Shown: one piece after another, positions 2 to 43,909 of the stretch | Position numbering within the stretch: position 1 is the first letter of the stretch | Layout of the letters: each line of letters opens with the position of its first letter | IMG/VR virus record: IMGVR_UViG_3300032331_000813 | Location: 20,466-84,465 of that record | Length of the DNA: 64,000 bases | Strand: one strand, 5' to 3' | Origin: a virus | Notes under the pieces: generated by a model | Told to the model about the DNA's origin: nothing | The model's input: the letters and a program-made list of their open reading frames with translations, nothing else | The model's database searches: none | Translations under genes and position numbers: made by a program

Positions 2-2128
2 AGTGCAAATCAAGGGGCAGATGTTAAAGTAACATCTAGCGCATCTGCAACATTACCAACTCCACCTAGTCCTACTGTACAAGCAACAAATTCAGCAGTT
101 GCTGATTCTACAGAAACCTCAGTTACTGCATCTATTGCAGCAACTGTTCCTCCGGTAACTCCTATTAGTGAATCACTAGATAAAAATGTTACTGCAACTA
201 TGGTTGCAAGTACAGCAGGTCGAGCCGCAGCAAAAACTCCAAATGTAGTGTCAACTGGTACTGGTGTTATCCCTGATAAAACCGGAAATGTAAATGCAGC
301 CGTTGGATCATTTGCAATGACACCTCAACAAATGGAGGCAGCTATGGTTATAAAACCGGGCTCTGCTGCATTAGTGACTGGACTAGTTCAGAAGGGTTCC
401 AATGTGTCGGCTGCTATGACAAATAATTTGTTCACTGGTGTACCGGGGGCACAAAATTTAAATGCATTCAATCAAAATATAGGTTCACAAGTTGGAGCAC
501 AAATTCAAAATTTCCAACAAGCACAAACTGCATTAACAAAAGTTGGTGCAATAACCGGCAATGAAACTCCTCAATCTATTGCAGGTGTAGTAAATGCTGC
601 TTCTCAAGTTGGAGTACCGGCTACTGCTAACTTCATTCAATCTGCTACTGCAAAACTTAATACAGCTGGTATACCAAACCCAACAAATGGGGTAGGTAGT
701 AATGTAGCGTCGGCAATATCAGCGGGAGGATTTGCATCTGCCTTAGCTACTAATGTCAATTCAGGGGTAGGTTCTATCGCTACATCATTAGGAGGACTAA
801 ATCCAGCAGCCGCTACAGGTAAGGTTAATTTACTTGACTCTGCTAAAGGCATAGCTGGATCAGCTTTTGGTGCAATAACAAGTTCGTTTAAATCATTAAA
901 AGCAGGGGTTCCTCAAGACTTAACTGCAATTGCTAAAACAAACGCAGAAGCACAAGCTGCATCGGAAGCAAGCGCGGCAGCACCAGCAGCAACAGCAATT
1001 GCTGCCGCAACGTCAGCCGCAAATCCCACTGTTGGTTCAGCAGCATCATTATCCGCAGACTTAGCAAAAGCGCAAACTGCAATTAGTGGTGGCGCAGCAA
1101 AATTAGGAATTCCGGGATTAACTGCCACTGCTTCTTCTCTAACATCAACTCTTAGTCCAGGACTAACTAGTTTAGTGGGAAATGCCGGATCAATTACATC
1201 GTCATTGACATCTTCTGCAAGTAGTTTAATACCCAGCAGCAGTAGCATTACTGCATTAGCCGGCGGCACATCAATTGCGGGCGCAGCCGCGGCAGCGAGT
1301 AGTTTAATTCCAACTGGAAGTGGTATCAACGCACTACCAGGTGGAGCAGCAGCCGCAGCTTCTTTTGTGAATAATTCCGGAGCAAGCACTTCAATACCTT
1401 CATCAATCGCCGGAGTTTCTAGTATTTTGAAAAACTCATCAACTAGTGCAATGACTGGAATATCCAATAGTGCTGCGTCATTGAGTAGTGGAATATCAAT
1501 GTCCGCTGGAAACTCTGCTATGTCAACTGCGGTAAATTCAGCTAATTTAAATTCAGCATTGTCTAGCTCAATAGATTCGGGTAAACAAAGTTTATCATCA
1601 TTGACCAGTGCAGGTTTACCCGCAGGTGCAGCCGCTGCATTAGCTGCAAGTGTGAATTCTCTTAACTCTTCTGGACCTTCCCCAATTAAAATGCCAACGA
1701 TAGCAGCAAATACTGTAGATAGAAGTGCATTAGCCGAACAAACTACGTCCGTTTTAAGCAATCCTAAAATACCAGCACCAAACTTCTCAGGAGATATTCC
1801 CACAGTCCCTGCTTCTGCGATTGCTGCAAATAAAGCAAGAGATAAGCGTATAGAGTATTTTAAATTAAAACAATCATATGCGGAAGAAAAAGTCAAACGA
1901 ACAGACGCAATAATGGCTGAGAGAGCCAAATATGAAGCACTTAGGGATAGTCTTCCGGAAGGTGATCCAACAAGAGCAGCAGCCAAAACAGAGATTAATG
2001 CAAAGATCGCAGCATATACTGCTTGGTGGAAAGGCGAAGAAGCTAAAATTGAAACATTAAGGCTAGAAGTTAATGAAGCACAAAGGGCTGAAGGACAAGC
2101 AATATGGAAAGAAGTCACTAACGGTTAA
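2..2128 (+). CDS. Ala/Ser-rich phage structural protein, 3' part (5' end outside window)
   Basis: The frame is open from base 2 to the stop at 2126-2128, so the first ATG at 200 is internal and the gene starts outside the window. About 700 residues are visible. Most is low-complexity Ala/Ser/Thr/Gly/Asn sequence with many short hydrophobic stretches. The C-terminal 110 residues differ: they are charged and helical (Lys/Glu/Arg/Ala), likely coiled coil. It sits directly before gp25 and gp6, so a tail or baseplate role is likely from position. Marine T4-like phages often carry an Ala-rich protein here. I do not recognise a catalytic domain; the function is unknown. Confidence 0.75.
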   Translation, partial: SANQGADVKVTSSASATLPTPPSPTVQATNSAVADSTETSVTASIAATVPPVTPISESLDKNVTATMVASTAGRAAAKTPNVVSTGTGVIPDKTGNVNAAVGSFAMTPQQMEAAMVIKPGSAALVTGLVQKGSNVSAAMTNNLFTGVPGAQNLNAFNQNIGSQVGAQIQNFQQAQTALTKVGAITGNETPQSIAGVVNAASQVGVPATANFIQSATAKLNTAGIPNPTNGVGSNVASAISAGGFASALATNVNSGVGSIATSLGGLNPAAATGKVNLLDSAKGIAGSAFGAITSSFKSLKAGVPQDLTAIAKTNAEAQAASEASAAAPAATAIAAATSAANPTVGSAASLSADLAKAQTAISGGAAKLGIPGLTATASSLTSTLSPGLTSLVGNAGSITSSLTSSASSLIPSSSSITALAGGTSIAGAAAAASSLIPTGSGINALPGGAAAAASFVNNSGASTSIPSSIAGVSSILKNSSTSAMTGISNSAASLSSGISMSAGNSAMSTAVNSANLNSALSSSIDSGKQSLSSLTSAGLPAGAAAALAASVNSLNSSGPSPIKMPTIAANTVDRSALAEQTTSVLSNPKIPAPNFSGDIPTVPASAIAANKARDKRIEYFKLKQSYAEEKVKRTDAIMAERAKYEALRDSLPEGDPTRAAAKTEINAKIAAYTAWWKGEEAKIETLRLEVNEAQRAEGQAIWKEVTNG

Positions 2129-18000: not shown

Positions 18001-21000
18001 AGTAGACAATACAATTGACATTGGTAGTACTGAATTACAAACTGGAGATTTAGTAGTATATACTGTTGGCCCTAACTCAACCCCTATAGGTGGATTGAAA
18101 GAAGGTCAAAGATATTATGTAAATCTTCTAGAAACTATACCTGCACCAATCATTGCACTTTATACTGAATATCTATCTGCGATTGAAGATCACGATAGAG
18201 TTATATTAGATAGTACTGGCACAGGGACTCAAAAGTTCAGCATGGGTGCTGCTGCAAATGCAATAACAAATGCAACACCAATAAGAGAAAATATAATATC
18301 ATTAAGATTTGATAGAACAACTTATAATTCTCAAGTAGTAGAGTGGTCACCATTTGGATATTATGGTTCTTTCTATGCTGGAACATTGCGTAATCCCGAC
18401 AAAGTAGCATCATCTGCAATTACTTTATACAGTAACACTCCGCCTATTGAAACTATATTAGCAAGTGCTCAGGGAGCAACATTTGAAATTTTAGATACTA
18501 CTAATCAGCAAACACTTGAGTGGTCATCAAGAACAAGAAATACAATGCAGACGTATGGTAGTCTTTACCCTACTGAAGCATATAGAAATGCAATTCGTAT
18601 CGACCCGTCAGACGGTGGTGTAGCAGTAGAAGGTTTTATTGGATCAACAATTGGTTTCTATATAGGAATGCCAGTTAAGTTCAACGGGTCAACTATTGGT
18701 ACATTGTTAGAAGATGATGTAACTTACTATGTTAAGTCATTAGTTAAGTTACCAAATACAGGAACATCAACTAGTGCAACCAGAACCAATGCTTCAAATA
18801 ATACTATTACAGTAGCTAGTTCTGTTAATTTTAAATTGCAAGATACTGTTGTGTTTACTAGTGCTACGCAGATTATATCTTCCGGATATTTTGTTATAGG
18901 TCAAACGTATGAAATAACAACAGTAGGAACAACTAACTTCACCTTAATAGGTGCTGCTTCAAACGATGTTGGTACTGTGTTCATTGCAACTGGAGTCGGC
19001 ACAGGTACTGGAACTGCGGAACAGAGAAGTTTGGGCAATGTTATATATCTTGAAACATATTATATCTTGAGTAAACCGTCTGCAACTACAGTTACACTCT
19101 CACAAACATTAGGTGGTAGTGTATTCAAGTTATCTAATGCCACTGGTGTAATGACAATGATCAGACCTGATACTGATGTATTAGAAGATACTGGTTTTAC
19201 GATTTCTGATACAGTTGACGAGAATGGTAATCCAGGCGCAGTTTATTCTCCTAACATTGGCATTGGTTCAGTAACTATTGCACCTGCAGGATTAAAATTA
19301 CTAACAGGCAATCAAACTAATCTTGAGATAATAACAATTAATTATTCTGGATTAAGAAATACTGTAGCTACTACAGGTACTACAAACACAGTAACTGTAT
19401 TGTTGACTGCTACAGGCGAAAATGGTACTACTGGATTCTATACTGGACTTCCTATATTCTTTGTAGGTAATACGTTTGGTGGAATTGTTGAAAACATTAG
19501 TTATTATGTAACTACTGTTATTGATGCACAGACATTCACAATGTCTCCTACATCAGATGCACCTTTTGCTATTAGTTTCACTGAAACCACATCAACAGAT
19601 AATTTAGTTGTTTGTGGAACAAGTAGTACTGAAAATATTACTTTAAACTTGTCAGTCAATGAACCTATCATATTTACTGACTTCGTATTAAAAGCAGGTT
19701 ACTTTACAATAGGACAAGTATATTCTATAGTTTCTGTAGCAGATAATAACGGCGGTGCTACTACTGATTTTACTTTGATTGGTTCAAGTTCTAACGCTAT
19801 TGGTACTATATTTACTGCTACTGGTGTAGGCACTGGAACCGGTACTGCTACCCCAACAAGTCCTTCTACTACGTTTGGTGGAATAGTTTTTGGTAAGACA
19901 TACTATGTAAGACAAAAGTTTGCAGACGTTGACCCAATTGATTTAGTTACAACTACATACTCTATTTCTATAGCTGAAAGCGTAAATGGAGATGCAGTAA
20001 CATTAACTAATACGGTTGGTTCATGTTTGTTTACAAGTCAAAAAGATACACTACCATTAACAACAGCGACAGGTTCTATGACTATGAATGTTGCATTACC
20101 AGTAAGTCCTGGACAAGTTGATGGACAACAGTTTACTTTATACAACACTTCTAGTCAGTTAGCGGGCAAACAAGGAACAGTATCTAATCTATTGAATAGA
20201 GAAATAACTTCTACTTTAGATACAGTTAATAGAATTTGTTTATCTTCATTTAGCGGTGGATTAACTGACATATACAATAATTTACAATTTAAAGTTTCTA
20301 CACCAATTGGTGGATTGACTAATGCTACCGTTTATGCTGGTAGTTTCATTGTTGGAAATGTTTATACAATAACTTACATTGGTGATACAACTCAATCTAA
20401 TTGGAATACTATTGCAGGTACTACTGGTGTAGTATACACTATAAACAGTGTGTTTACTTGTGCAGCAACTGGAACTTATATTGGATCACAAACTGGATCT
20501 GCTGTAAGAGTTTATAAAATAACAGGAACTGGAACTACCTCAGTCAAAGTTATTGAAACTCAATCTTCTGGAAATTGGTTAAGGTTAAACGATGACGATA
20601 ATCCAAATACTACTGATGTTTTATATGTGGGTATGCCTTTATATTTCAGCGGTACTTCAGTTGGTTCTGTATCATTAGGTGTAGTGTATTATGTGTTTAG
20701 TATAGATTCAAGTCCACCGTCAGGTACAGGTAGATTCTCAATATCAGAAGTATCTGATTTGTCTAGCCAATTTACAGTAACTGACGATGTTGGAGTAATG
20801 ACCGGATCAGGAGATCCTTATGTAACAATAACTTCTCCTGCGTCATTACTAGATTCTAATCAAATAGCAACTTTCTCAAGTGCTCCTAGCACTGCAACAG
20901 TAACAGTAACTAACGGCTCATCATTTACAAATGGTATGGCAATAAGATTCAATACTACTGACACGTTACCTACTCCGTTGAAAATAAATGTAACTTACTA

Positions 21001-24000
21001 TATTAAGAATCTTAGTGGAAATACATTTAATATAGCATATAGTGCTACTGGTTCACTTATATCATTGTCATTAAATGGTACCGGAGTTCAAAGAGCATAT
21101 GCTCTTCCTGTTATACTAACACAAGTTACAAAATCAGATCCGGTATTTGATGTAAGTTATATTTTAGGTGGTTACAGAACAATAATTACAAATCCAGGTT
21201 CAGGGTATGCAATAAACAATGCTATTACTGTATTGGGAACATCATTAGGTGGAACTACTACTAACAATTTAATACTAACCGTAACTTCAATCAATTCTGA
21301 AGGTGGTATACTATCAACTACTGCAAGTGGAACCCCACCTGGACCAGAAAATCAATACTATTTGAAAGTATTGTCAGTAAATCAAATGGCTGTGTATTCA
21401 AATGCTATATTGACATCACAAGTAAGTGGACAAAATTTCCCTTACAAGGGTATAACAACTATTACAGCAACTGCCACAACAGCAGCTACTGATTTAATTA
21501 CTATAAACAGTACTAGTGATTTCAGCGTTAATGACCCAGTTGTCTTTACTGGAACAGTGTTTGGAAATATAGTTTTAGGAGCTACGTATTATATCACTGG
21601 GTATGGCCCTACAATTAGTGCTGGCAGTTTTGTTGCTACAACACAATATAGAATTAATTCATTAGGCACTACTGATTGGAACATTGCAGCAGGAACATAC
21701 GGTGTTACATATAGTGTAGGAGATGTGTTTACTGCTGTAACAACAAGTTCAGGTACAGGTAATGTTACTTTGTTAACAAGAATAACGATTTCACAAACAA
21801 TTGGTGGTTACACATTTGAATTAGCAGATGCTACTGGTTCCATGACAATGGCTAAATCAGGTGACTATGCATTGTTACCGGAACCATTCTACTTCAGTCC
21901 TAGTATTGTAAAATACGGAACTCGTTTATATGAATGCGTAGTCAGTAATAATGACAATGAGTTTATTTTTGGTAAGTGGGCATTACTAGATACCGGAAAT
22001 AGAAATGTAAATGCACTAGACAGAATTGCAGCATACTATCAACCAACAGTTAACATGCCGGGTGTTGATTTAACCCAACTAGTATCAGGTATAACATATC
22101 CAAATAGCACTTATTTAGGTAATGCATTCGCACCAGCAGATGAATTCACATTAGATACAATTTTAACTGATAGACCATTCTACCCAACTGGTGTAGATTT
22201 AGAAGCCATCATTTGGAATGGTGTAATTTATATGGCTGCTGCTCAAACAAGCGAATATAGTTCAATTAACATGAGTGTAGATACTGATAATTGGACAATA
22301 ACAAAGATAGCAAGAAATCCAATCAATATAACCAGTCTATTATATGTTAACGGTAACTATTTGATGACAGCTAATAATGGAGCAACACCGTTATTGATAA
22401 GTGAAGATGGATATCAATGGATAACTAACGGTTCATTTACCCCTTTCAGTAGTACACCATGGGACGTTGTTTCATATGATATATCTTCAATGTCTATGCC
22501 GGCGTTCTCATTGAATGAGTCAGCATATTACAATGGTATATATGTTGCTGTAGGTGATAATATTGTGTCATCAACTGATTTATATGCATGGGTAGAAAGA
22601 TTTACATTTGGTGGCACTTTGACTACTAGTGAGTTTAAAGGGGTTTGCTATGCAAATACCGCTGGATTCTCTGGTTTTATGGCAGTTGGTTTAGGACAAA
22701 TAATTACGTACAACAATGTTGGCAATGTGACTAATGTTGGTATAGTCTATACTAGCCCTGACGGTATTACTTGGCAACAAGTTCCAATGAATATTACAAC
22801 TGATTTAAGTTTTAATAGCATTGCAGCTAGTGGACAAACAATTGTCGTAGTGGGTGATGATGGATTAATATGGACAAGTTTCAACGGAAGTATTTGGTTT
22901 AATCAAACATCTCCGATAACATCTAACTTGAACAATGTAAGTTGGAATAGTGTTAATAATACATTTATGGCAGTTGGTGATGATGGTGTGATATTATATA
23001 ACTCTACAGGCACTGGTATAACATGGACAAGACAAACTTCAGGTACTACGGAAGATTTACAAAGTTCAGTATGGAACAATTCACGTGGTGAATATGTCGT
23101 AGTAGGATATAATAACACTATATTAACAAGCACTATCGCAGCAACAAGTTGGTCAGCACATGCTAAATTTATAAATCCAATAGCAGTGTATGATGTACAA
23201 GGCGATGATTTCTCTGCAGGATATGGCCCAGAAGAATTAGTTGGTGGTGTTGTAGAAGATACCATAATGATGACTGTAGCAACTCGTCCGGGTACAAACT
23301 GGGATGAAACAATTTATCAACATACTGGTTATAATGTAGTTTCTGAAGAAATATATCCAATCAATGGTACTCAAACTGATTATAGTTTTGCTAATTTAGT
23401 ATCTACCCCTGCACAATTGAGTGTATTTGTTGTGAGTTATTTGACTGGAACAAGTACTACTCTTTATGAAGGAGCCGATTATTATATTGACTGGATTAAT
23501 AAAACAGTATCGATATTTACCCCATTGACTTATGTATCATCTACTTTAAGAGATAGATTGCGTATTGATGTATATGAAGTGGGCAACGGAGACCAATTAG
23601 TTAAAGCAAATACAGAAACTGATCCACTAAGAATAAATCCTGTTACAGGATTTAATGAGATATATGTAAATGCTAACTATAGCGCAACTATATACAAAGG
23701 TTCAGGATTAATACGTCCTAGTACGGCTCCAATTGTTACTACTGCAACACACACTAATAGTTTTGATAATACGATAACATGTACTAGTGTTACTGAGTTT
23801 GTACTTAATGGACCTATATACTTTTCTGGATATGTTTTTGGCAATATAGTTGAAGATACAATTTATTATGTTAAATCAATAGGCGGAGTATCAAATCGAA
23901 TTACTATTTCTGATAGTTATAATTCAAGTACAGGGGCTGCAGGAGATACTTTCATTTTATCTTCTGCGGACGGAAGTATGGAAGCAGTTATACAGTCTAC

Positions 24001-27000
24001 AAACAGTGTAGTATGGACACCACCGGCTATATATCATAATGGATCATTATTGATATCGGGTATTACTGAAACTGTTTTGAGAACAAAATCAAGTACTAAT
24101 ACCATCACAGCTATTACTACTGGAGGATTGATTGTAGGTACACCTATCGTATTCAGCGATACTATATTTGGTGGTATAGAGCCTGGCATAATATATTACG
24201 TAAACTTAATATATGACTCAAACGAATTTACAATATCTGAAACTTTGGGCGGTTCTGATTTAGAATTAACCGATGCAACAGGTAGCGCAATATTCATAAC
24301 AAATGACTATGCTATTGGATTTGCTGATAATGGAATATCTGCGGCAGTAATATTCTCTCAACTGTATGACACAACGGTTGACTATATAAGTTACACATTG
24401 TTTGGTGAAACATTCCCTATTCAATATGGATATACTATCCCGCAAGTAGAAACATTTGTTGGTGACGGGGCGACCTCTACTTTTGCTTTAAGTAATTATA
24501 TATCAGATGACAGCGTTGTTAATGCAATAGTAGAAATAGACGGCATTCGCAGAACATTAGCAGAATATACTATTAGCACTATTACTAATAGTATTACGTT
24601 TAAAAATCCTCCTAGTGCAAACCCTGCGACTACAACAGCTGGTAATTTTGTAGTGGGAACTTCTTATCGTATTGCGTCATTGGGAACAACTGATTTTGTA
24701 TCAATAGGCGCAACTTCTACGGCAAATGTTACTGGTTCTATTAGTGGTACATCTTTAACTATTACTAGTGTTACTTCAGGATTATTAGATTCAGGAATAT
24801 GTATAACAGGTACGGGAATAACAGCTGGCACATATATTACTGATCAAATATTAACGCAGACAGCGGGCAATTTTATTGTAGGGATGCCATATAGAATAGA
24901 GTCTATTGGAACAACTGATTTCGTAGCAATAGGTGCAGCTTCAACAGCGGTTGTAACCGGTACGATTAGTAATGGTTTAGGTAGCGCAGGTAATAAACTT
25001 AATGTTACTGCTTCAACTTCAGGTGCGTTAGCAGTAGGCACTTACATAACAGGTACGGGCGTAACCGCAGGAACATATATTACTGCTTTGGGTACAGGTA
25101 AAGGCGGAATAGGAACTTATACTGTAAGTGTGTCACAAAATGTAACTTCAACTACTGTTACAGGTCAACCGTTAGTAGGTGAAGGATTTATTGCAACTGA
25201 CATAGGATCTGGTACTGGAACTGCAACACAAACTAATCCCGGTGGAATAGGTTTATACACGGTTGATACTTCACAGACAGTGGCAGAAACTGCAATAACA
25301 GGTCAACCAACTGTTGGTACTGTATTTACTGCAACTGGCGCAGGCGCTGGAACTGGAGTTGTAACTGGGCTAGTAAGTGTCGCAGTAACGACATATAACT
25401 TAACCGAACGTCAGTATCTTAGCACTCAATATAATATTACTGGTATCACACAGACTAGCCAAGGTTCTGTAACAGTAACTGGTAGTCATGGGTTAGAAGA
25501 AACATATGATATGCCAGTTAATGCAGGCTATTTTGATGTTGGACAATCTTACACTATACAAACATTGGGTAATACAAATTGGACAAGCATAGGTGCAACT
25601 CAAGTAACTGATGCTACCTTAACAAAAGGCACTCAGTATATTATTAATACTTTGGGAACCGCAGATTGGACTTCAGTTGGTGCAGGTGGAACAGTAACTG
25701 GTAGTATATCTAACAAAACTATCAATGGGGTAAATACTGGAGTACTAACTGTAACTAGCGTATTGACCCCGTCGATTGTAGTGACTGATTTGGTTATTGG
25801 ACAAACTTATACAATTTTATCATTAGGTACAACTACTAATACACAATGGAATACTATTGCAGGCACTACTGGAAAAACATATGCGGTAGGTAATAGAATA
25901 GATGCTCAAGTAGTCGGGACTGGTACTGGCACTGTAGCAATGAATATGGTAGCAGTTAATCAATTCCTTAGCAGTAGTAGTGTTACTGTTACTGCTGGTA
26001 ATTTTAATATAGGAACTTTATATACTGTTGCAACACTCGGTACTACTAATTTCGTAGCCGTAGGTGCAGCTTCAACTGCGGTAGTAACTGGAGTTATTGG
26101 TGTTACTGTTACAGCTGGTAGTTTTGTAATAGGAAATTCATATTTTATTACAACATTAGGGACTACTGATTTCACTTTAATTGGTGCAAGTTCTAATACA
26201 GTTGGTGTTACATTTATTGCTACGGGCGCAGGAACTGGTACTGGAACTGCAACTAGACCGGGTATAGCAGGTACTACCCTTAATGTATATGCAGTTACTT
26301 CAGGTACATTAGCAGTTGGCACTTATATAACAGGATCAAATGTAGCAGGTGGCACTCGTATTACAGCATTGCTTACTGGAACAGGTGGAATAGGTACATA
26401 TACTGTTAGTACTTCACAATATGTAAATTCAACTATAATAACAGGACAGCCGGCGGTTGGAAGCACATTCACTGCTACTGGAATAGGAACTGGAACTGGA
26501 ACTGCATCCTCAAGCATTGCAGCAAGCACAACTATAACAGGTTTCTTAAGTGGTTCAGGTGGCGTAGGTACGTATACATTGAGTAGTCCACAAATTATAA
26601 CAAGTAGAACCATGACTCTTGGTCCTAATGTAGGGGTATTATTTACCGCTACTACTAATAGTGATCCATCAGGTTCAGGCGGATTTGCATATGTAGCTAG
26701 CTTTACTGCAACTGGGGCGGGTACTGGTATTGGTGCCGGAACAATAGCGTATAGCACAACAGATTTTTCTACATTACAGTATTGGTTAAGTACATCAGCA
26801 GGAGGCACCAGTGTATTGGGTGTAAATTATCCAATAGTATTTGGAACAGTTATACCAAACTGCGGTATAACTGCCGGAAGAAGATATTATGTAACAAAAA
26901 TATTAGATTCTTCAAGATTTACGGTGTCTACTCAAGTAGGGGGAGCATCTCCTAAATTAGAAACTACTACCGGTACTATGATTGGCACAATGACTCAATT

Positions 27001-29323
27001 ATCAGTTTCACCGATTGACAACATAACTAATACTATAACACGTCCTGCATTTAGTTTATCTATTGCAGAAATAAAAGGTGGATCTCTTGATATAATAAAC
27101 GTAGCTGCAACTACCGTAGGTAGTCAGTATGTTATTGTAGCTTTAGGAAACACCAATTGGAATACAGTAGGTAACACTACAGGAATCACTTATGCTGCCG
27201 GAGATTTATTGACTGTAGTAAATGTTGCTACTGGAACTACCGGTACTGTACAGCTTGCTGATGTTATAAAAGTACCGGATGTATATGGTTTGGCAGAAGG
27301 TCAAGATGTTATATTTAAAATAAATCAAACTAACGCTGGTTCATTTTTAGTTGGGTATGCGTATGTTATTAATGATTTAGGTAGTACCACACAATCACAA
27401 TGGAACACTATAGCAGGTACCTCAAGTGTAATATATAAAGTAGGAATGGGATTCACTGCTGCAACTGTTGGTACTGGTACTGGAACTGCTGTGTTAGTTG
27501 ACGTAGGTGGATTGAATACATCCGGTGAAACTTATTTTGTTAAAACAGTTATATCTAACCCATCAACATTATACGGAAGCTATTTCATAGTCGAAGATCA
27601 ATATGGCACAGTACCAACATTGTCAACTACTATGTATGAAATTGTAGCATACATTGGTGGTACTCCTACTATCAGAATTAATACAGCTACTGATACAAAC
27701 TTAATACAAAATAATGTAGTACGTATTGACGGTACGATTGGTTCAGTTCAATTGAATAATAATATATACTATGCTAAGATCATACGCAATAATATTATTG
27801 ATATCTACACAGAGCCATACAATCCAGCATTATATGCAGAAAATTACCCAGTAATATCATCTTACACTTATGTGTCTGGTGGTTACATTTGGGTAGATGA
27901 GTTGTTCACAGTCGCTGACACTTACGCAACTGCATCTAGTTCAAATGGTAATAGAATTACAGTTGCTGATACTAGCATGTTAGTACCGGCTACCCCTGTG
28001 TATTTTACACAATCAGGTTCTGAGATAGGTGACGATTTATTAGGCGGAGTAAAAGCTAAAACTGAATACTATATATTACAAGTAAGACCTGAAATCGCAG
28101 CTGGTAATTTTATAGTAGGAAACTATTATGAAATTTCTATTCTTGGCGATACTAATTGGAATACCATGTCTGGTATAACTTCAGTAAATGCAGGTTCATT
28201 TGTAGTAGGATATACATATCAAATTACTTCAGCAGGTAATACTGATTTTACAACTATTGGTGCAACATCAAATACAGTAGGCGTAATTTTTGTTGCTACT
28301 GGAGTTGGTTCTGGTACCGGAACTGCTAATATAATATACGTTGCCGGTGATGTTTTTGAAGCAGCATCTGCTGGTAGTGGTACTGGATTTGCTTTGGGAT
28401 TACAAGAATTTACTATAAGTGAAAAGAGATTCCCAGATGAAGCTGAAGTCACGTTAATCGATGATAGTTCAAGTGCTATTGAAAATACAATACACGTATC
28501 ACAATTCCAACAAGTTAATGTTGATAGATTGTGGGTAACAATTAACGGTTATAGAGTACCGTCATCATCATTAAGATTGAATCCTTATAATAATTTAAGT
28601 ATTTTAGCTACAGTAAATACCGGAGACGATGTAATTATTACTAGCATGATGCCTACAGCTACACCAAATGAAGAAGTGTATCTATTAAACGTGCCAATGG
28701 TAGCAGATTCATCAGTGTATAGGGCAAACACACAAACTAGAACATGGTTGGTTGAACCACTAAGATACGTAGATGACACTATTTATTTAAATGACATTAG
28801 TAGAGTTACGGATACCCTTACACAAGTATCAACGGTTCCTGCTGAGTTAGATGGAAAATACAGCATAGGTGTTGTTGGTACTAAGAACACGATCACTAGC
28901 GTAACTGTTTACAACAACACAACTGACGCATGGATAGATCCAGCTGTATACTCGCTTGTAATAGTTGATTTTGCTCCTATCTTAGAAATCGACAGTGAAG
29001 TTTCTGAGGGAGATTCAGTCACTATCACTATTATTGAAGGAAGATTATTGTACATCAATGGAGAACAGATTGGATTTGGAAAGTGTGACTTAATAAACAA
29101 CACCGTAACTGAATTATCTAGGGGAACAAATGGAACCGGGCAGCAAACTTACATACCGTTGTATGCTGAAGTCTTTGGTATGTTACCATCTAATCAGATG
29201 ACCAGTGTATTATATTCTGACACATGGAACCCAATCCCAGGAATTTACAATACAGTTGACGGAGATCCATTGCAGATTGCATATACCCAAGGTGCAAACT
29301 TCTTGCGAGGCGACATTAATTAA
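6053..29323 (+). CDS. Giant modular virion structural protein (7756 residues) in gp7 position
   Basis: One uninterrupted 23.3-kb frame. Residues 1-110 resemble the start of large baseplate/tail proteins of T4-like marine phages ([13 protein letters not shown] opening). Residues about 1250-2530 and 3230-3850 are complex sequence with many Trp and Tyr, likely the true wedge-like core. Residues about 2530-3200 hold FG-GAP-type repeats (GSAVAY, GYSIATD, GSSIDV, GTALDF followed by IGAP or IGTP), as in beta-propellers. Residues about 5380-5700 hold a second propeller-like region ([24 protein letters not shown]). Residues about 4240-7450 carry repeat modules: a C module ending in LTDATGSMT, an A module around GTTDFTxIGASS and GTGTGTA, and a B module around GTYTVSxSQ. 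They are nested in one another. The position after gp6 suggests the gp7 role, but sequence identity with gp7 was not established. The protein ends RGDIN. Confidence 0.85.
24638..26760 (+). repeat. Recursively nested A and B protein modules in the giant structural gene
   Basis: Coding repeats of about 45 residues (A: AGNF.VG..Y.I..LGTTDF..IGA.S then VG..F.ATG.GTGTGTA) are split by about 75-residue B modules (VTGSISG ... GTYITGTG ... [11 protein letters not shown] ... TGQP). The outer A opens at 24638 and closes near 25365. Inside it an outer B (24722-25308) is itself split by an inner A (24863-25232), which is split by an inner B (about 24946-25170). A second nest runs 25994-26512 with an intact A at about 26114-26257 inside B. 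Every split keeps the frame and the two halves of the outer module remain complete. Confidence 0.75.
28100..28391 (+). repeat. A module inserted inside another A-type module
   Basis: An A-type variant (opening [13 protein letters not shown], then [11 protein letters not shown]) is interrupted at about 28187 by a complete second A module ([13 protein letters not shown] to GTGTANI, ending about 28329). It resumes with [10 protein letters not shown] and SGTG. The uninterrupted variant occurs at about 27110-27250, which shows where the halves join. Confidence 0.7.
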
Positions 29324-35586: not shown

Positions 35587-36529
35587 TATTATTGATGTTG
35601 CAGATTTAGATTGCATCTATCTAAGCTATGATGAGCCACAGAAGGAAGAGTTTTGGCTTAAGATTAAAAATATGATACCGTGGGCTAAACGTGTAGATGG
35701 AGTTAAAGGCTCTGACGCTGCACATAAAGCAGCAGGCAAAGCTAGCGACACGGAACGATTCATTCTAATTGATGGTGATAATATGCCCGAAGAAAGTTTC
35801 TTCAATATGCAATTAGATTTTAGCAATAAGGATTCTAAATTTAAATTGGCTCAGTTTCGTTGGAAAGCAGTTAACAGCATCAATGGATTACGTTATGGTA
35901 ATGGTGGTATGAGTAGTTGGACAAAGACTTATGTTAGTGAAATGAAAACCCACGAAAATCAAACTGAAGGGGATATAACACGTATAGCTGATTTCTGCAT
36001 GGATAGTAAAGATAATCTATATTGGGCTATGTATGATTGCTATTCAACTACGTACCCAAACTATACTCCGTTTCAAGCATGGCGTGCTGGATTCCGTGAA
36101 GGTGTAAAGATGTGTTTAGACCGCGGCGCCAAACCTACAGTAGACCAATTCAAAGAAACTGTTGCTAGCCGTAACTTAAACAACTTAACTATCTGGCATA
36201 ATGTGGGTGCAGATGTTGAAAATGGATTGTGGGCTATATACGGAGCGAGACTCGGTACATACATGACCATGCTAACTGATTGGGAACACACAGATGTTCA
36301 GTGGTTTGATAACTATATAATAATGTGGGAAGAACAAGAATATAATAGAGATCCAGAGCGTGAAGCAACATTATTAGGTGCAGCATTACATGATAAACTT
36401 GGATTGCCAATGTGTACTTTGGGAAAAGAACAAAGTAAGTTTTTTAAACGTCATTACAATGCCGACAAACACAACCTAGGTCCACTAGTAACAGAGATGG
36501 ATGTAATTCGCAAGATAGAAGGTTGGTAA
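35573..36529 (+). CDS. GT-like protein related to the C-terminus of the 1457-residue repeat protein
   Basis: The 318-residue product has a RVDGVKGSDAAHKAAGKAS segment (about 40-60) followed by RFILIDGDNMPEESF, where DGDN sits like the DxD site of GT-A enzymes. The pair R-DG-V-G...AAH also occurs in GT25-like and procollagen-type transferases. The C-terminal domain of the repeat protein at 53484 has the same arrangement (RVDGVQGRVNSQHAAANAS, then NPVNGLKYGHQ, compare NSINGLRYGNGG), so the two are homologous. Here the acidic motif is intact, so this copy is the better candidate for activity. The acceptor is unknown. Confidence 0.6.
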   Translation: MNSNDIIDVADLDCIYLSYDEPQKEEFWLKIKNMIPWAKRVDGVKGSDAAHKAAGKASDTERFILIDGDNMPEESFFNMQLDFSNKDSKFKLAQFRWKAVNSINGLRYGNGGMSSWTKTYVSEMKTHENQTEGDITRIADFCMDSKDNLYWAMYDCYSTTYPNYTPFQAWRAGFREGVKMCLDRGAKPTVDQFKETVASRNLNNLTIWHNVGADVENGLWAIYGARLGTYMTMLTDWEHTDVQWFDNYIIMWEEQEYNRDPEREATLLGAALHDKLGLPMCTLGKEQSKFFKRHYNADKHNLGPLVTEMDVIRKIEGW

Positions 36530-37923
36530 TGAGCAATGAACAACAACGAATAAAAGACATTAAGATCAAGATTGAAAATGAAGTAGGTTCTACTTTCTGT
36601 CTTGCCAAATGGCATCATGTCACGATGTATTTGCAATCAGGTGAAACACATAGTTGTTATCATCCCAAACCGCATAAAATCCCTTTAAGGGAACTTAAAG
36701 ACAATCCGTCTGCATTACATAATACTTTAGAAAAAAAGACTGAACGTAAGTTAATGCTTGAAGGGGAGAAACCTTCGGGATGCCAGTACTGCTGGAACAT
36801 TGAAGCAATGGGCCCAGACTATATTAGTGACCGTCATATTCGTAATGCATCTATCTTTACAGAAGAACGATATGAGCAAACTGTTAAGGGACCTTGGGAT
36901 CAGAATATTAACCCAGAATACTTAGAGATTAATTTTGGTAACGAATGTAACTTCAAATGCGGTTACTGTCACCCAAAGTATAGTACAAGTTTCTACAATG
37001 AAATAAAAACTAACGGTCCTGTTAATACAGTAAAGAATCATCGTTGCGACATTGATTGGATGAGACTATATCAGCGTGAAGAAGAAAATCCGTACGTTGA
37101 TGCATTTTGGCAATGGTGGCCTGAATTACGCAAGACATTGAACATCATGCGGGTTACAGGTGGCGAGCCTACTATGCACACTAGCACTTGGAAATTATTG
37201 AAAGAGATTGACCAAGACCCTATGCCTTGGTTAGAGTTGAACATCAATAGCAATTTAGGCACTAAAACTAGTCTAGTTGAAAAACTAAGTGATAGTGTAA
37301 AGACGCTATGTGATGATAAAAAGATTCGTGCTTTCAAGTTATTCACTAGCATGGATACATGGGGTCAACGTGCTGAATATATTCGCACTGGTTTAGATTT
37401 AGAATTATGGGAAAAAAATTTCCACACCTACTTAACTAGAACTGATAGCCCAATCACGTTTATGATTACCTTCAACATTTTTAGTGTGACTACCTTTAAG
37501 TCATTGCTAGAGAAAATGTTAGAATGGAGAAATCAATATGGATGGTATGATGATATAAAAAGCCATCGTGTTCGTTTTGATACACCTTATTTGCGTGATC
37601 CAATTCAATACGATATGAATATTCTTCCTAAAGAAGAATTCATGCCTTACATGCACGAATCATTAAAATTTATGGAAGACAACTTAGACGATAATGCTAG
37701 CAATAAGTTTACTACGGTAGAATATGAAAAGTTCAAGCGTGTAGTAGATTACATGGCAGAGACAGTTTATCCAGAAAACAAACTGGTTGAAGGTCGCAGA
37801 GATTTTTATAATTGGTTCAACGAATTAGATGAGCGTAGGGATACAGATATGTTATCTATTTTTCCAGAGTATATAAAGTTCTATAGATTATGTCAAGAAG
37901 CTAATCAGTTAAATCCATTATGA
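36529..37923 (+). CDS. Radical SAM enzyme with N-terminal twitch domain (copy 1)
   Basis: The protein has 464 residues from the ATG at 36529, which overlaps the preceding stop as TAATG; an in-frame TTG six bases upstream is less likely. Radical SAM signature CNFKCGYC at C140, C144 and C147, followed by VTGGEPTMH, the GGE SAM-binding motif. The N-terminal 90 residues hold C24, C43 and the pair C85/C88 (GCQYC), fitting an auxiliary Fe-S twitch domain placed before the core, as in N-terminal-twitch radical SAM proteins. The substrate is unknown. It is the first and most divergent of four such genes in a row and may act on a sugar or peptide. Confidence 0.8.
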   Translation: MSNEQQRIKDIKIKIENEVGSTFCLAKWHHVTMYLQSGETHSCYHPKPHKIPLRELKDNPSALHNTLEKKTERKLMLEGEKPSGCQYCWNIEAMGPDYISDRHIRNASIFTEERYEQTVKGPWDQNINPEYLEINFGNECNFKCGYCHPKYSTSFYNEIKTNGPVNTVKNHRCDIDWMRLYQREEENPYVDAFWQWWPELRKTLNIMRVTGGEPTMHTSTWKLLKEIDQDPMPWLELNINSNLGTKTSLVEKLSDSVKTLCDDKKIRAFKLFTSMDTWGQRAEYIRTGLDLELWEKNFHTYLTRTDSPITFMITFNIFSVTTFKSLLEKMLEWRNQYGWYDDIKSHRVRFDTPYLRDPIQYDMNILPKEEFMPYMHESLKFMEDNLDDNASNKFTTVEYEKFKRVVDYMAETVYPENKLVEGRRDFYNWFNELDERRDTDMLSIFPEYIKFYRLCQEANQLNPL

Positions 37924-39152
37924 ATAAAAACTATAGATTAAATGAAAGTAAAACTTTTTGTATGGCACCTTGGGTGCATTTGCATACTAATCCCAGTGGA
38001 GTTGCTGCCCCGTGCTGCATAGCACAATCATGCTCAACCTTCGACGGTGTAGGAAATGCAAAATCTCAATCATTAATGGAGTTAGTAAATTCTCCTAAAA
38101 TGAAACAATTGCGTTTAGACATGCTAAACGATGTTAAAAATCCTGAATGTGCAACTTGTCACAATATAGAAGAATATGAAATACAAAGTAGTAGAGAGCA
38201 TTTAAATATAGATTGGGGAAAAACATACTATGATGAATGTATTGAAGATACACTATCAGATGGTTCTTTAACTGAATTTAAAATGCGATACTTTGATATC
38301 AGATTTAGTAATATTTGTAATTTCAAATGTAGGTCTTGTGGTTCCTCATTCAGTAGTCAATGGGAACAAGAAGATTTAAAAAATAACTTAGTATATGCTA
38401 GAACGATACCAAAAAATGATAATAAAAATTTCTTAAATGATGTAGTTGATCAAATTCAATATATGGATCAAGCATACTTTGCAGGCGGTGAGCCATTGAT
38501 AACAGAAGAACATTATATCTTGTTGGAAGAAATGATCAAACAAGATAAAACAAATATAAAATTACGGTATAATACTAACTTGAGTAATTTAAAGTTTAAA
38601 GACAAAGATTTACTTGGGTTGTGGAAGCATTTTAAAAATGAAATAATGATCTCAGCTAGTATAGACCACTATGGTGAACGTGCAGAATATATACGGCACG
38701 GAACTGATTGGGCAACAGTTGAAAATAATTTCAAAATAATACGTAAATTGCCATATCTGAAGTTACAAATGCATTCTGTATTGAGTGTGTTTAACATGTT
38801 AACTATGCATGAATTTTATCAATATTTGGTTGACAACCAGTTATATGATAAGAAAAATTACCCTAACACAATATATAATTTAGATATTCCCGAAATATTA
38901 TCATGTAATATATTGCCACCGGAATACAAAGAAAAAGGAAAGTATAGTTTAGAAATGGTTGTATCAATGCTATCAAAGCAAAAATTTAGAAAATATCATA
39001 TTGATATGATAAAAAACGTAATTCCAAAAGCGTTAGCTAATGACACATGGGAAGATAAGAAAGAAGAATTTAGAAACGAGATACATAGATTAGATAAAAT
39101 ACGAGGGGAAGATTTTAGTAAAACTTTTCCAGAACTAGCAGGATTACTATGA
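37920..39152 (+). CDS. Radical SAM enzyme with N-terminal twitch domain (copy 2)
   Basis: A 410-residue protein. The twitch segment opens KTFCMAPWVHLHTNPSG (C14), then PCC (C32, C33) and ECATC (C77, C80). The radical SAM triad is C133, C137 and C140 (NICNFKCRSC), followed by FAGGEPLITEEHY. A later YNTNLSNLKFKD strand and SIDHYGERAEYIRHG stretch are shared with copies 3 and 4. It overlaps both neighbours by ATGA. These enzymes use SAM and [4Fe-4S] clusters to make a 5'-deoxyadenosyl radical; the auxiliary cluster may bind substrate. The substrate is not evident from sequence. Confidence 0.82.
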   Translation: MNKNYRLNESKTFCMAPWVHLHTNPSGVAAPCCIAQSCSTFDGVGNAKSQSLMELVNSPKMKQLRLDMLNDVKNPECATCHNIEEYEIQSSREHLNIDWGKTYYDECIEDTLSDGSLTEFKMRYFDIRFSNICNFKCRSCGSSFSSQWEQEDLKNNLVYARTIPKNDNKNFLNDVVDQIQYMDQAYFAGGEPLITEEHYILLEEMIKQDKTNIKLRYNTNLSNLKFKDKDLLGLWKHFKNEIMISASIDHYGERAEYIRHGTDWATVENNFKIIRKLPYLKLQMHSVLSVFNMLTMHEFYQYLVDNQLYDKKNYPNTIYNLDIPEILSCNILPPEYKEKGKYSLEMVVSMLSKQKFRKYHIDMIKNVIPKALANDTWEDKKEEFRNEIHRLDKIRGEDFSKTFPELAGLL

Positions 39153-40375
39153 ACAAAGAATATCTATTAAACGAAAGTAAAACTTTCTGTATGTTTCCCT
39201 GGGTGCATTTAAATGTTACTCCTAAAGGAGATATCTACCCCTGCTGTAGTAATGACTATACAGTACCATTTGGTAACACTAAACAAACTAGCCTTAAAGA
39301 AGCATTTAACAACGAACAGATGAAGCAATTGCGTTTGGATATGTTGAATGACAAACCAAACAAGATATGTAACTTCTGCTACAAGCACGAAGAAGCAGGG
39401 CCTCATAGTTTTAGAAACTATAGCAAAGAACACTTTGCTAAACACTTTGATACAACTGTTCCTACTACACAAGCTGACGGAACTGTTCCTGACTTTAAGA
39501 TGCATTACTTTGACATACGTTTTAGTAACATATGCAATTTCAAATGCAGAACATGTGGAAGTGAATTCAGTAGTCAATGGGGAGCAGAGATGCGAGCCAA
39601 TCATGATCCAAAGCATCCTATCGTTATCCATGCTGATGAAAAGGGTAATCTATTACGTGAAGTATTAGAACAAGTAGAACATATTGACCTAGCATACTTT
39701 GCAGGCGGTGAACCAACGCTAACAGAAGAACATTATCTGATGTTAGAAGAAATGATTCGCAAAGGTCGCACAGACATTACACTACGTTACAATACAAACG
39801 CTAGTAATATCAAGTTTAAAGACTATGACTTGCTAGACATGTGGAAACACTTTAAAAAGATTGAGTTAAGTTGTAGTATTGACCATTATGGAGAACGTGC
39901 AGAATGGTTGCGTCATGGAACTGACTGGGGATTGGTTGAAAGTAATCTACTAAAGTTTCGTGATTTAGATTATGTTTCGTTTCAATTGAATACAGTATTC
40001 TCAATATTCAATTACTCAACTATTGGTGAATTTTATTCTTATCTAAAAAGTAAGGGTATTATTCGCAGAGATGATTGGTATCATAGTCTCTACTTAGCAG
40101 TTCATCCTAGCTATTATAGTGGTAAGAGTTTACCCAAAGAACTAAAAGTCGAAGCAGCAAGTAAAGCATTAGCCTGGGCACAGAATAACGAGGGCGACGG
40201 TACATCATTGTCCCGCTTAGTAACCGATGCGGTTAATTTTGCCAAAGAAGATGATTCTTGGGGAGCAAATAAACAAACTTTTATGTTACACACAGGGTCA
40301 AGTGATAGGATACGCGGGGAAAGTTTATGGAAAACATTCCCTGAATTAAATAAATTACAAGAGTTGATGGAGTAA
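39149..40375 (+). CDS. Radical SAM enzyme with N-terminal twitch domain (copy 3)
   Basis: The 408-residue product is the closest paralogue of the preceding gene, with identical layout: twitch cysteines C14, C32, C33, C74 and C77 (KTFCMFPWVHLN, YPCC, ICNFC); radical SAM triad C129, C133 and C136; then FAGGEPTLTEEHY and IDHYGERAEWLRHGTDWG. Conserved order with diverged ends suggests duplication followed by change in substrate or step. It starts with ATGA overlap. Confidence 0.82.
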   Translation: MNKEYLLNESKTFCMFPWVHLNVTPKGDIYPCCSNDYTVPFGNTKQTSLKEAFNNEQMKQLRLDMLNDKPNKICNFCYKHEEAGPHSFRNYSKEHFAKHFDTTVPTTQADGTVPDFKMHYFDIRFSNICNFKCRTCGSEFSSQWGAEMRANHDPKHPIVIHADEKGNLLREVLEQVEHIDLAYFAGGEPTLTEEHYLMLEEMIRKGRTDITLRYNTNASNIKFKDYDLLDMWKHFKKIELSCSIDHYGERAEWLRHGTDWGLVESNLLKFRDLDYVSFQLNTVFSIFNYSTIGEFYSYLKSKGIIRRDDWYHSLYLAVHPSYYSGKSLPKELKVEAASKALAWAQNNEGDGTSLSRLVTDAVNFAKEDDSWGANKQTFMLHTGSSDRIRGESLWKTFPELNKLQELME

Positions 40376-40377
40376 AA

Positions 40378-41655
40378 ATGCAAGACCCAATCGTAGTAGA
40401 AAATTTAGTTAAACATGGTAAACACTTTTGTGTATTACCTTGGGTACATTTTCATTCATGGCCCGATGGTAAGGTAATGCCTTGTTGCGTTGCGGATAGC
40501 AATATGCCCGTAGCATCAATAAAAAACAATGAATCTATTATTCAGATGATGAATAGTGAAGATTACAAGAAGATGCGTACTAAAATGCTGAACGATGAAC
40601 CAGTCGAAGCCTGCAAGCGTTGTTATGATTTAGAAATTATGGGCACATGGACAATGCGTCAAAGTCATAACAAGCGCAGGGGACTTGAGTATGTAGATAT
40701 GATTTCAAAAAACACAACCAAAGATGGTAGTCTAACTGAATTCAAAATGAAGTATATGGACTTGCGTTTTAGTAACATGTGTAATATGAAATGTCGTAGT
40801 TGTGGTCCTGGATGCAGTAGCCTTTGGGCACAAGAGTTTGTGGACGAGAGGGGTGTTGACGTTTACGAGGAATATTTCAAAACTAGAAAAGTTGTAATCA
40901 ACGCTTCTGAAGAAATGGGTTTTATGGACAAACTAAAGCCTTATCTTAAAGACGTACTAGAAGTTTATTTTGCAGGCGGGGAGATTATTATCACTCCTGA
41001 ACACTATGAATGTTTAGATTATTGGATTGAAAATGGCTTAACTAAACAAGTTGAGTTGACTTATACTACTAACTTTAGTTCATTGAAATACAAAGATAAA
41101 GACTTGATTGGGTATTGGAAGAAGTTTCCGCAATTAAAAATATGGGCTAGTTTAGATGCTGAAGGTAAAGTAGCAGAGTCTATCCGCAAGGGAACAGACT
41201 GGGAGCGCATCGTTAAAAATATGAAAACTCTTAAAGAACAAGTTCCTCATGCACAGTTTCAAATTACTCCAACTATAAGTATATGGAATGTTTTTGATTT
41301 CCCTGACTTCTTTGATTACATGGTAGATGAAGGGTTTATCGATGTTCGTAGCAGCAGTCCTAGATTTAACCTAGCAACTAATCCATGGTATGCAAATATT
41401 ATGATATTACCAGTATCGGTTAAGCGTAGACTGATTGAATTATATCGGGTATATGCTGAAAGATATGAAAATGTAAATCAAGACATTGCCAATGGATTTA
41501 GAATGATTATATATAACTTAAATGTAGGTGATGAGAACAAAGGCGGTATATTAGAGTTTAAAAAATTCAATGATGAATTAGATGAATTTAGAAATGAAAA
41601 ACTAGAAGATATTGTTACGGGACTTAAAGAGGTATATGCATGGGCAGAAAGCTAA
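40378..41655 (+). CDS. Radical SAM enzyme with N-terminal twitch domain (copy 4)
   Basis: A 425-residue protein. Twitch cysteines C18 (KHFCVLPWVHFHSW), C36/C37 (MPCC) and C79/C82 (ACKRC). Radical SAM triad C135, C139 and C142 (NMCNMKCRSC), then YFAGGEIIITPEHYE; the usual GGEP reads GGEI here, a small departure from the motif. SLDAEGKVAESIRKGTDWE replaces the HYGERAEYIRHG stretch of copies 2 and 3. It is 2 nt downstream of copy 3 and overlaps the next gene by 16 nt. Function as for the other copies: unknown radical chemistry, likely in the same pathway. Confidence 0.8.
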   Translation: MQDPIVVENLVKHGKHFCVLPWVHFHSWPDGKVMPCCVADSNMPVASIKNNESIIQMMNSEDYKKMRTKMLNDEPVEACKRCYDLEIMGTWTMRQSHNKRRGLEYVDMISKNTTKDGSLTEFKMKYMDLRFSNMCNMKCRSCGPGCSSLWAQEFVDERGVDVYEEYFKTRKVVINASEEMGFMDKLKPYLKDVLEVYFAGGEIIITPEHYECLDYWIENGLTKQVELTYTTNFSSLKYKDKDLIGYWKKFPQLKIWASLDAEGKVAESIRKGTDWERIVKNMKTLKEQVPHAQFQITPTISIWNVFDFPDFFDYMVDEGFIDVRSSSPRFNLATNPWYANIMILPVSVKRRLIELYRVYAERYENVNQDIANGFRMIIYNLNVGDENKGGILEFKKFNDELDEFRNEKLEDIVTGLKEVYAWAES

Positions 41656-42611
41656 TAGCTATTGAAGCCCCAGAACCATATTTGGCAATTACGTGGCAAG
41701 TTAACAATTACTGTAATTTTAAATGCAGTTATTGTAATCCGGGCAATTGGGGCGGGACTGATGTAAATGATGGCAACACCGATTTATACATCAAAAATTT
41801 AGAAACGATAATCAATCGTTACAAAGATGTAGGCTATAAAAACTTTAAGTTTTTCTTTAGTGGTGGAGAACCTACTGCATGGCGCAACTTCATACCAATT
41901 TGTGAATGGTTATACAATGAGTTACCACACGCTACATTAGCAGTTAATACAAACTTAAGTCGTCCATTGAAATGGTGGGAAAAGAATCATCACTTGTTTG
42001 ACGATGTGGTTGCTAGTTTTCACGTAGAGTTTGCAGATAAACAACGTTATGAAGAAAATAGTATATTCTTATGTGACAAGGTAAACTACCTAGCTACTAA
42101 AATGCTATTGCATGAAGAAAAGTTTTGGGAAGTAGTTGAGTTCGGTAAGCATTTGAAAACAGTAATGCCAAACTACTTCTTAGAGTGGACTCCGTTGTTT
42201 GATGAGATGAGTGTAAATGCAGGTCCATGGTCATATAAAGATTCAACTAAAACTCAATTTATAAATGACTGTACCTCTGAACATCATCAGTCTAAACCAA
42301 AACCAAACAAAAGAACAAATTTCACCGTCAGCTATAATAAATATGATGACAATCATACTGAAGTATGTAATAGTAATGAAGTAATTGTTGCTGGTAATAA
42401 TTTCTTTAAGGGTTGGCAATGTAATGTAGGTGATGCAATTTTTATTAATCCAACGGGAGAAATGAGTTTAGCAAGTTGCGGAATGGGCGGTAACGTAGGG
42501 CATATATTGAAAGATATAAAACGTGTTGGTCCCAAACAAATAATGTGTGCCAAAGAACATTGTCATTGTGGCACCGATATTATTATACCTAAGTATTTAA
42601 AAAATGAATAA
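41640..42611 (+). CDS. Radical SAM enzyme without N-terminal twitch domain
   Basis: The product has 323 residues. The SAM-cluster motif comes early at C25, C29 and C32 (NYCNFKCSYC), with FFFSGGEPTAW as the SAM-binding motif. The C-terminal part has several cysteines (WQCNVGD, LASCGMGG, IMCAKEHCHCG), consistent with a C-terminal auxiliary cluster of SPASM/twitch type. This is the opposite domain order to the four genes upstream, so it is a separate subfamily. It overlaps the upstream gene by 16 nt and the downstream gene by 8. The substrate is unknown. Confidence 0.8.
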   Translation: MGRKLIAIEAPEPYLAITWQVNNYCNFKCSYCNPGNWGGTDVNDGNTDLYIKNLETIINRYKDVGYKNFKFFFSGGEPTAWRNFIPICEWLYNELPHATLAVNTNLSRPLKWWEKNHHLFDDVVASFHVEFADKQRYEENSIFLCDKVNYLATKMLLHEEKFWEVVEFGKHLKTVMPNYFLEWTPLFDEMSVNAGPWSYKDSTKTQFINDCTSEHHQSKPKPNKRTNFTVSYNKYDDNHTEVCNSNEVIVAGNNFFKGWQCNVGDAIFINPTGEMSLASCGMGGNVGHILKDIKRVGPKQIMCAKEHCHCGTDIIIPKYLKNE

Positions 42612-43908
42612 TATTAAAATAGTTTACAGTTGGATTGGACCAAAAGGTCCAATCATGAATACAGAATTACCTAACATATTGTGTTTTGCTAATGTGACAA
42701 CAGATGTGACTGTCAATTCACAAAAATTTTGGGCAGATGGTTTATATCATAGCGTATTTTTAAATACTGAACCATATCAATTAGCATCTACTATAGATAT
42801 AAACGAGAATGATACTTTCATATATCCGTTTACGTTAGCATGGAGGCATTCTATGACAACGTATTTTACTCCATTCAATGGTATATTAGAATACTCACAC
42901 ACCCCTGATAATATAATACATCAAGTTCGTACACATAAGGGCTATTTTTTATTAGAATATGCAGTTGAGGCTTTCATTAGGCCGGACCATTTGAGTTTGA
43001 TTCATACTTATTTCAAAAATTATGATATTCCCTTATGTAAAGTAATATATATTACTGGATGCATGAATGCATTAGAGAGATATGAGGTTTGGTGCCAGCA
43101 AAACGGTATACCTGATACTCCAAAAGATAGAATTAAATTAGTATCTTACCCTACTAGTAGGTACAATTTAGCAAGCCATATGTTAAATAACACTGAACCA
43201 AATTACAATACAGAGTTTGTTCCTGATAAATTATTTCTATCTTGGAATAGAAGATTTAGACCTCACCGTACAATACTGACTCTAGCATTAGATAAATTAG
43301 AAATAGTAGATAGAAGTTACTTTAGTATGGGTAGAAATGATCCTGAATTTGGCGATCAATTATTTGAAAACAACCTGTGGGTAAATGTATATAGTCATAA
43401 TATGTTCAATCTAACCGTTGAAGACCTTAATAAGTTGTTAGTCAAATTACCTTTAATAGTAGATGGCAAAACTGAAATACATGACATGTGCATAGATAGT
43501 TTAAGTGAGGCTAGAACATTTTATCAGAACAGTTTGATAAGCATAGTTACAGAAACCAATTTTGATTTAGAAGAAGTAACCTTAACTGAAAAAGCATTTA
43601 AGCCCGCAAAAGAAAAACACCCCTTCATATTAGTGGGAGGTCAAGGATCATTAAAAGCTATGCGTGATGAAGGCTTTATGACATTTGGTCAATTTTGGGA
43701 TGAGTCCTATGACAATATAACTGATTGGCAACAACGCTTACATAAAATTATAGAAATAGCAGAACAAATTAGTAAATGGAACGATGAACAGATAATTGAC
43801 TTTAAAAGAAAAGTACAACCAATATTAGACTATAATTATAATGTATTGAAAACTAGTAGTACCAAACATGTAGCAGAAAAAATTAAAAATTTAATAGGAA
43901 ATACATAA
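42604..43908 (+). CDS. Putative glycosyltransferase-like protein
   Basis: The 434-residue protein has LFLSWNRRFRPHR in the middle (about 210-222) and, near residues 310-370, a conserved end: ISIVTETNF, LTEKAFKPAKEKHPFILVG, then GFMTFGQFWDESYD. The TEK.F...HPFI.VG arrangement is like the nucleotide-binding C-terminal lobe of GT-B enzymes such as fucosyltransferase-like families. The same end occurs in the oxygenase fusion at 49373 (SEKALQPIFYKKPFIMVG, GFKTFGDFWDESYD), so this phage carries two. Sugar donor and acceptor are not known. Overlap with the neighbours keeps it in the operon. Confidence 0.6.
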   Translation: MNNIKIVYSWIGPKGPIMNTELPNILCFANVTTDVTVNSQKFWADGLYHSVFLNTEPYQLASTIDINENDTFIYPFTLAWRHSMTTYFTPFNGILEYSHTPDNIIHQVRTHKGYFLLEYAVEAFIRPDHLSLIHTYFKNYDIPLCKVIYITGCMNALERYEVWCQQNGIPDTPKDRIKLVSYPTSRYNLASHMLNNTEPNYNTEFVPDKLFLSWNRRFRPHRTILTLALDKLEIVDRSYFSMGRNDPEFGDQLFENNLWVNVYSHNMFNLTVEDLNKLLVKLPLIVDGKTEIHDMCIDSLSEARTFYQNSLISIVTETNFDLEEVTLTEKAFKPAKEKHPFILVGGQGSLKAMRDEGFMTFGQFWDESYDNITDWQQRLHKIIEIAEQISKWNDEQIIDFKRKVQPILDYNYNVLKTSSTKHVAEKIKNLIGNT

Positions 43909-43909
43909 A

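Follow-up and report, generated by a model that had tools for sequence, protein, structure and literature searches.

The window analysed here is a stretch of 64,000 nt, covering positions 20,466 to 84,465 of the 84,465-base virus record IMGVR_UViG_3300032331_000813, and all coordinates below are those of the window. Its forward strand carries a giant open reading frame (6053-29323) of 7756 aa that matches PHROG 10938, a virion structural protein, and giant frames are also present in three relative records (7347, 6798 and 6718 aa). The nested modules described here lie near the C-terminal end of this frame, in a part for which Pfam has no model. Elsewhere in the window, 36523-47835 holds a run of radical SAM/SPASM-type proteins (two SAM proteins were checked) together with an epimerase and a B12-binding radical SAM protein. 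A carbamoyltransferase with both N and C domains, an unusual phage cargo, occupies 51997-53472, and the 1457-aa protein encoded at 53484-57857 has, by eye, many diverged repeats around 'FDFSWHPD..PP'. A Gram-negative porin (Porin_4, 59763-60647) is followed by a phosphate-binding-like protein (PBP_like_2, 60734-61750).

The nests are built from two small beta modules, A (~46 aa) and B (~67 aa), and from a long-loop form of A, designated A'; an opened module is written with its insert in brackets, as in A(B). Profile models constructed from phage contigs span 46 columns for A, 65 for B and 52 for A'. Neither A nor B has a matching model in Pfam or NCBIfam, and A(B) meets only three weak and unrelated Pfam families, with a best E of 0.0026 and with each family found in between 1 and 5 of the 27 members. 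The Ig family gave no Pfam match to A(B), a kinship that fold comparison cannot exclude. Among 50,697 cultured phage records searched by tblastn with the low-complexity filter on, the nest had no match and A had three. We know of no paper on these modules, and a literature search for them found none among the matches listed.

The first nest (24638-25363, forward strand) has the order A(B(A(B))) in one open frame, as determined with the profile models of A and B. The N-half of the outer A (24638-24727, aa 6196-6225) is followed by the N-part of the outer B (24728-24847, aa 6226-6265) and the N-half of the inner A (24863-24952, aa 6271-6300), which is opened by a complete inner B (24953-25171, aa 6301-6373) identified by its profile (75 bits) and its predicted fold. 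The opened modules then close in reverse order, with the C-half of the inner A (25172-25225, aa 6374-6391), the C-part of the outer B (25235-25309, aa 6395-6419) and the C-half of the outer A (25310-25363, aa 6420-6437). The A N-halves score clearly (E 8e-7 and 3e-7) and the short A C-halves are weak taken alone (8.6 and 12.5 bits); nesting is called because of the order of the halves, the recurrence of closed A(B) in other phages, the lack of any insert at this site in relatives and the predicted folds. An earlier note on this DNA had described nesting here from the letters alone, with the frame kept and each opened module closing correctly, and both the profiles and the module order bear this out. 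That note had treated 24638-26760 as one continuous nest; the nesting stands, but 25523-26740 is a separate second nest. The nest is real, and it is deeper than first reported.

The second nest, also on the forward strand, is best read as six levels, A(A(B(A', A(B(A))))). The N-half of the outermost A (25523-25603, profile) closes at 26696-26740, and within it the N-half of a second A (25604-25690, profile) closes at 26624-26695. This level 2 A is the weakest member of the nest (7.2 bits alone), and the six-level reading accepts it because of the parallel structure in two relatives, L169 and L273 (loci sampled from other contigs are given L numbers). The level 3 B begins with its N-part at 25691-25765 and ends with its C-part at 26507-26623 (profile), and holds two inserts, a complete A' (25787-25933, profile) and a further A, whose N-half (25994-26083) and C-half (26453-26506) were both recognised by profile. 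Inside the latter lies the level 5 B, split into a short N-part (26084-26101, profile) and its remainder (26252-26452, 72 bits) by the complete A of level 6 (26114-26251, 71.9 bits). Two smaller forward-strand sites complete the set: A' opened by a complete A (28190-28327) at 28100-28393, based on profile and relatives, and a single A in a loop of a host module, C, at 19694-19849, based on comparison with relatives.

Interruption of a domain by its own family, with both halves closing, is found in A'(A) at 28100-28393, in A(B(A(B))) at 24638-25363 and in B(B(B)) of L167 (frame 3227-4654, residues 187-410), where three B closing halves stand in a row; the same arrangement occurs in L166 and L211-L213, and all these loci, L167 included, come from three different contigs. 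In the giant protein, six of 16 units sit within an A or a B; by estimate, these modules make up ~10.5% of the protein's length (binomial P 0.004, from a hand count made after the fact). The earlier note had each module opened at one fixed point. This is the case for A and A', which in a hand-picked sample are broken in a single loop in all 18 nested cases (columns 24-32 of 46 for A, column 33 of 52 for A'), between the IGA and VG..F segments. It is not the case for B, of which the six nested modules in the same sample are opened at no fewer than four places, near columns 3, 15, 27-30 and 38.

The split modules may each fold as one unit, for which all structural evidence is prediction. AlphaFold2 gave the inner A(B) a pLDDT of 94.7 from 27 sequences, with two of the five models near 65, and the whole of nest 1 a pLDDT of 86.7, with the outer blocks mostly at 78-90 and no alignment rows covering them. 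Solved barrels align over the outer B of the model and skip its insert (1xe1, Z 6.7, 81 residues aligned, model residues 25..233; 9n71, Z 6.2, 34..231; also 5fg3), and solved barrels align with the inner B as well; 9n71 also matches B in the A(B) model. The best solved match of B is 8eci_1, a chain of 124 aa in an entry from Arthrobacter phage Bridgette, with Z 6.8, an rmsd of 2.1 across 66 residues and 32% identity. Barrels of IF2/eIF5B and EF-Tu reach Z of about 5.4-6.8, below the level that shows kinship; any Z <8 in these comparisons can reflect a common arrangement. No HABAS or Ig chain appeared among the matches listed in the fold comparisons, which excludes nothing. Among the best predicted viral matches of A(B) are tail fibre proteins, a capsid protein and a P22 gp10-like protein, along with two predicted collagen-repeat proteins of the giant virus Indivirus ILV1, and the latter suggest that a B-like barrel may reach beyond phages.

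The earlier note had proposed comparing close relatives for different insertion states, and such states (empty, single and nested at matching sites) were found. Scanning with the sequence on either side of site 1 gave 19 loci, among which L288 is a fragment, several are contigs already sampled and L275 equals L276. The 241 aa of nest 1 have no residue in any of the 16 aligned relative rows (15 distinct proteins), all of which cross the site unbroken. Among the relatives examined there was no half-built nest 1, so its order of growth is inferred. The site at 28100-28393 is empty in L277 and L282, holds a single A in L279, L280, L281, L169 and L170, and holds A'(A) in the window; across the spanning relatives, residues of the outer A are present in 7/14 and those of the inner A in 0/14. 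The loop at 19694-19849 is empty in most relatives, including L169 and L170, and carries a nest in L282, with the residues of the window common to one of 15. At the site of nest 2, the outer A is common to 4/15 relatives and the innermost A(B(A)) to none of the 15. Here A and A' are intact and adjoining in L280 and L281, whereas A' lies deep inside in L169 and L273, and simple growth of one arrangement into the other does not account for them.

Beyond the window, the flanks of 142 complete copies of A were compared. Of the 218 pairs obtained, 160 have A in both members, 33 are projected to be empty in one and 25 are of other kinds. Eight of the 33 projected-empty pairs were examined in full. 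In five, one relative simply lacks a single A (flank identity 82-89% for four of them and 79-85% for the fifth), and a small number of residues in the host loop are replaced where the module joins. The remaining three, from more distant relatives (68-80%), are less clear-cut. Pairs differing by one in-frame A at 79-89% flank identity include L065 versus L060/L025, L058 versus L017, and L025/L060 versus L065.

A is widespread among viral sequences. The viral scans confirmed 294 stretches for B (80 used), 204 for A(B) (79 distinct loci used) and at least 561 for A (best 80 of 561 used). Duplicate contigs occur among the loci (e.g., L090/L187, L117/L199, L161/L188, L166/L211 and L167/L212), and the module totals are therefore not independent. 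Nests in other phages include A in A (L068 and L269) and an A(A(B))-type (L196). Compared by their non-module sequence, the 154 host frames of A fall into 49 dissimilar clusters. Representatives of 30 clusters were compared with PHROG, and 20 of them match at 1e-5, most to tail, head, connector or structural families and one to an amidase, although the match of L184 is partly to the module itself (PHROG 21413). Host family names include tail sheath, tail fibre, tail spike, baseplate wedge, distal tail protein and major head protein. Together, the flank pairs and the host clusters place A in frame inside unrelated proteins. Among individual hosts, L013:1375-2946 has A modules within a protein matching the major head protein family PHROG 1357, and L076 and L083 are tail sheaths with A. 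A is also present in L252-L269, prophage or phage contigs assigned to bins of Spirochaetota, Flavobacterium, Limnohabitans, Verrucomicrobia and others.

A(B) recurs as a closed unit in other phages and has a signature of its own. Valine occupies column 21 of A in 24/27 A(B) units and in 11/136 empty A modules, and it is found in the inner as well as the outer A(B) of nest 1. The A-halves of A(B) also cluster on a tree, with 8 label changes compared to 24.6 when shuffled, and 13 compared to 24.5 when columns 21-27 are removed; part of this clustering comes from the many rows of one host family, and the tree left out the A(B) rows of L187, L210 and L196 and the long composite row of the window. 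The column 21 exceptions, with T or P (L092, L150, L090/L187 and L282), suggest from their sequence that A(B) could have had more than one origin or that halves could have been exchanged. Given the valine signature and the clustering of A-halves, the shortest history of nest 1 is one event that placed a ready-made A(B) in the B of a second A(B), and nest 1 may have been formed in this way. Repeated insertion, as originally put forward, is supported, but a separate event for each level is not needed when A(B) behaves as a ready-made unit.

The giant protein seems to grow by small folded units slipped into the loops of earlier ones. A and B would act as plug-in modules, with ends that fit into a loop on the surface of a host domain, and with loops of their own that can accept another unit, A at one loop and B at several. 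DNA encoding A or ready-made A(B) would be acquired in frame, including in the loops of modules already resident, and this recursion would enlarge the protein while each split module still folds. We consider it probable that the modules were acquired in this manner and that the protein grows by recursion. The DNA would presumably arrive through ordinary phage recombination, either illegitimate or homologous from module to module, and be filtered by the tolerance of the loops, and the product may provide the virion or its fibres with exposed decoration. The route we favour and infer combines ordinary recombination, selection for insert-tolerant loops and the spread of A(B) as a unit.

Several other histories could produce a similar order of halves. 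A misassembly of repeats in the metagenome could be imagined for a nest known from one metagenome record and with no exact match to its junctions elsewhere in IMG/VR, but it is exceedingly improbable because exact direct repeats within the 23-kb frame reach 19 nt at most; moreover, the nest copies are 60-80% alike in DNA, the frame is kept and other nests recur in separate contigs. Tandem duplication had been declared incapable of giving this order. Simple head-to-tail arrays are indeed absent, as Tandem Repeats Finder reports none inside the frame, but the logical exclusion does not hold, since two matched partial duplications, of the N-halves of A(B) and then of the C-halves, would give the same bracket order with no insertion. 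The N-halves A1B1 and A2B2 agree with this in being 69.1% identical in protein and 72.1% in DNA, compared to 69.1% and at most 69.1%, respectively, for the best outside match. The C-halves of nest 1 disfavour it, as they are 58.5% identical in protein, with 18 and 19 of the 27 A(B) units from other phages scoring higher; a duplication intermediate would also bear unpaired halves, and whole modules are inserted at other sites. Matched duplications are on this evidence a distinctly improbable origin.

Nesting could alternatively spread mainly by homologous replacement, in which an A within B is swapped for A(B) through the arms of A and no new loop insertion takes place. The valine signature and clustering of A(B) fit such an exchange, as does the fact that the A copies of the window match outside copies best, but homologous replacement does not explain how A(B), B(A) or A'(A) first arose, and the average DNA identity between copies of ~58-61% is low for homologous exchange. 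We regard replacement as the main route as a serious possibility, with the balance against it. A dedicated mobile DNA element transposing in frame, in the manner of the Rickettsia palindromic elements, would agree with the sporadic occurrence of A across 49 clusters of dissimilar host proteins, with its presence or absence between relatives and its landing inside both A and B, and with a slightly closer relationship between copies of the same record (0.61 versus 0.58 across 24 multi-copy records, 44/56 copies). The junctions examined for repeats and target sites, as the earlier note had advised, lack the marks of such an element. Flanking direct repeats of at least 6 nt accompany 22/178 elements compared to 16.2 expected, with no clear enrichment and no clear target-site duplication; the 15-nt ends match at about chance (27.6%), leaving no terminal inverted repeat; and positions 24000-27000 have no inverted repeat of at least 18 nt and no palindrome. 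In the host loops, residues are in many cases replaced and not duplicated, and for all four full-length 138-nt copies of A in the window the best match lies elsewhere. A slightly raised match of terminal codons (4.79 of 6 versus 4.58 shuffled) was set aside, because shuffling between records that differ in codon use can cause such an excess. Transposition by a dedicated element is improbable on these grounds. Insertion into tolerant loops by ordinary recombination remains the favoured reading. In a more speculative one, which we consider rather unlikely, A and A(B) would be a unit that is mobile at the level of the protein and has a grammar of its own, spreading in frame through unrelated virion genes and preferring loops of its own kind, with nesting depth recording the order of events. 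The hand count of nested units in the giant protein, given above, bears on this reading.

Internal domain insertion is an established phenomenon, but its steps are seldom seen. In this phage protein family, matching loops are found empty, with one module or with a nest, which makes it possible to measure how fast and in what order insertions occur, what each junction costs in sequence and how well split domains tolerate them in folding. The analysis also provides two loop-tolerant modules that natural phages have placed in heads, sheaths, baseplates and fibres.

Ig-like domains are promiscuous accessory beta domains common to unrelated phage virion proteins, and are mostly added at ends or between domains and not known to be nested in themselves. 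A and B are likewise accessory beta domains in unrelated virion proteins, but they are nested in themselves. Six-level self-nesting is described for the recursive HABAS insertions (Si3) of the cyanobacterial RNA polymerase beta' in the relevant passages of PMC13114784 and PMC11515920. Si3 belongs to one housekeeping enzyme and follows a lineage pattern, unlike the two alternating module types found here, which occur in many unrelated phage virion proteins and are present or absent among relatives. Rickettsia palindromic elements and PARCELs, as characterised in sections of PMC2996958, are in-frame coding pieces in otherwise unrelated proteins; A is similarly in frame in unrelated proteins, without the palindrome or terminal inverted repeat. 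Smug et al. 2023 (PMC10684548) report fragments common to unrelated phage proteins and ongoing shuffling, and the word 'nested' is absent from the main text of that account of domain mosaicism. Deep self-nesting, phage mosaicism and in-frame elements are each known, and what is new is a recursion of two modules, across many virion proteins, with intermediate states in relatives and still turning over.
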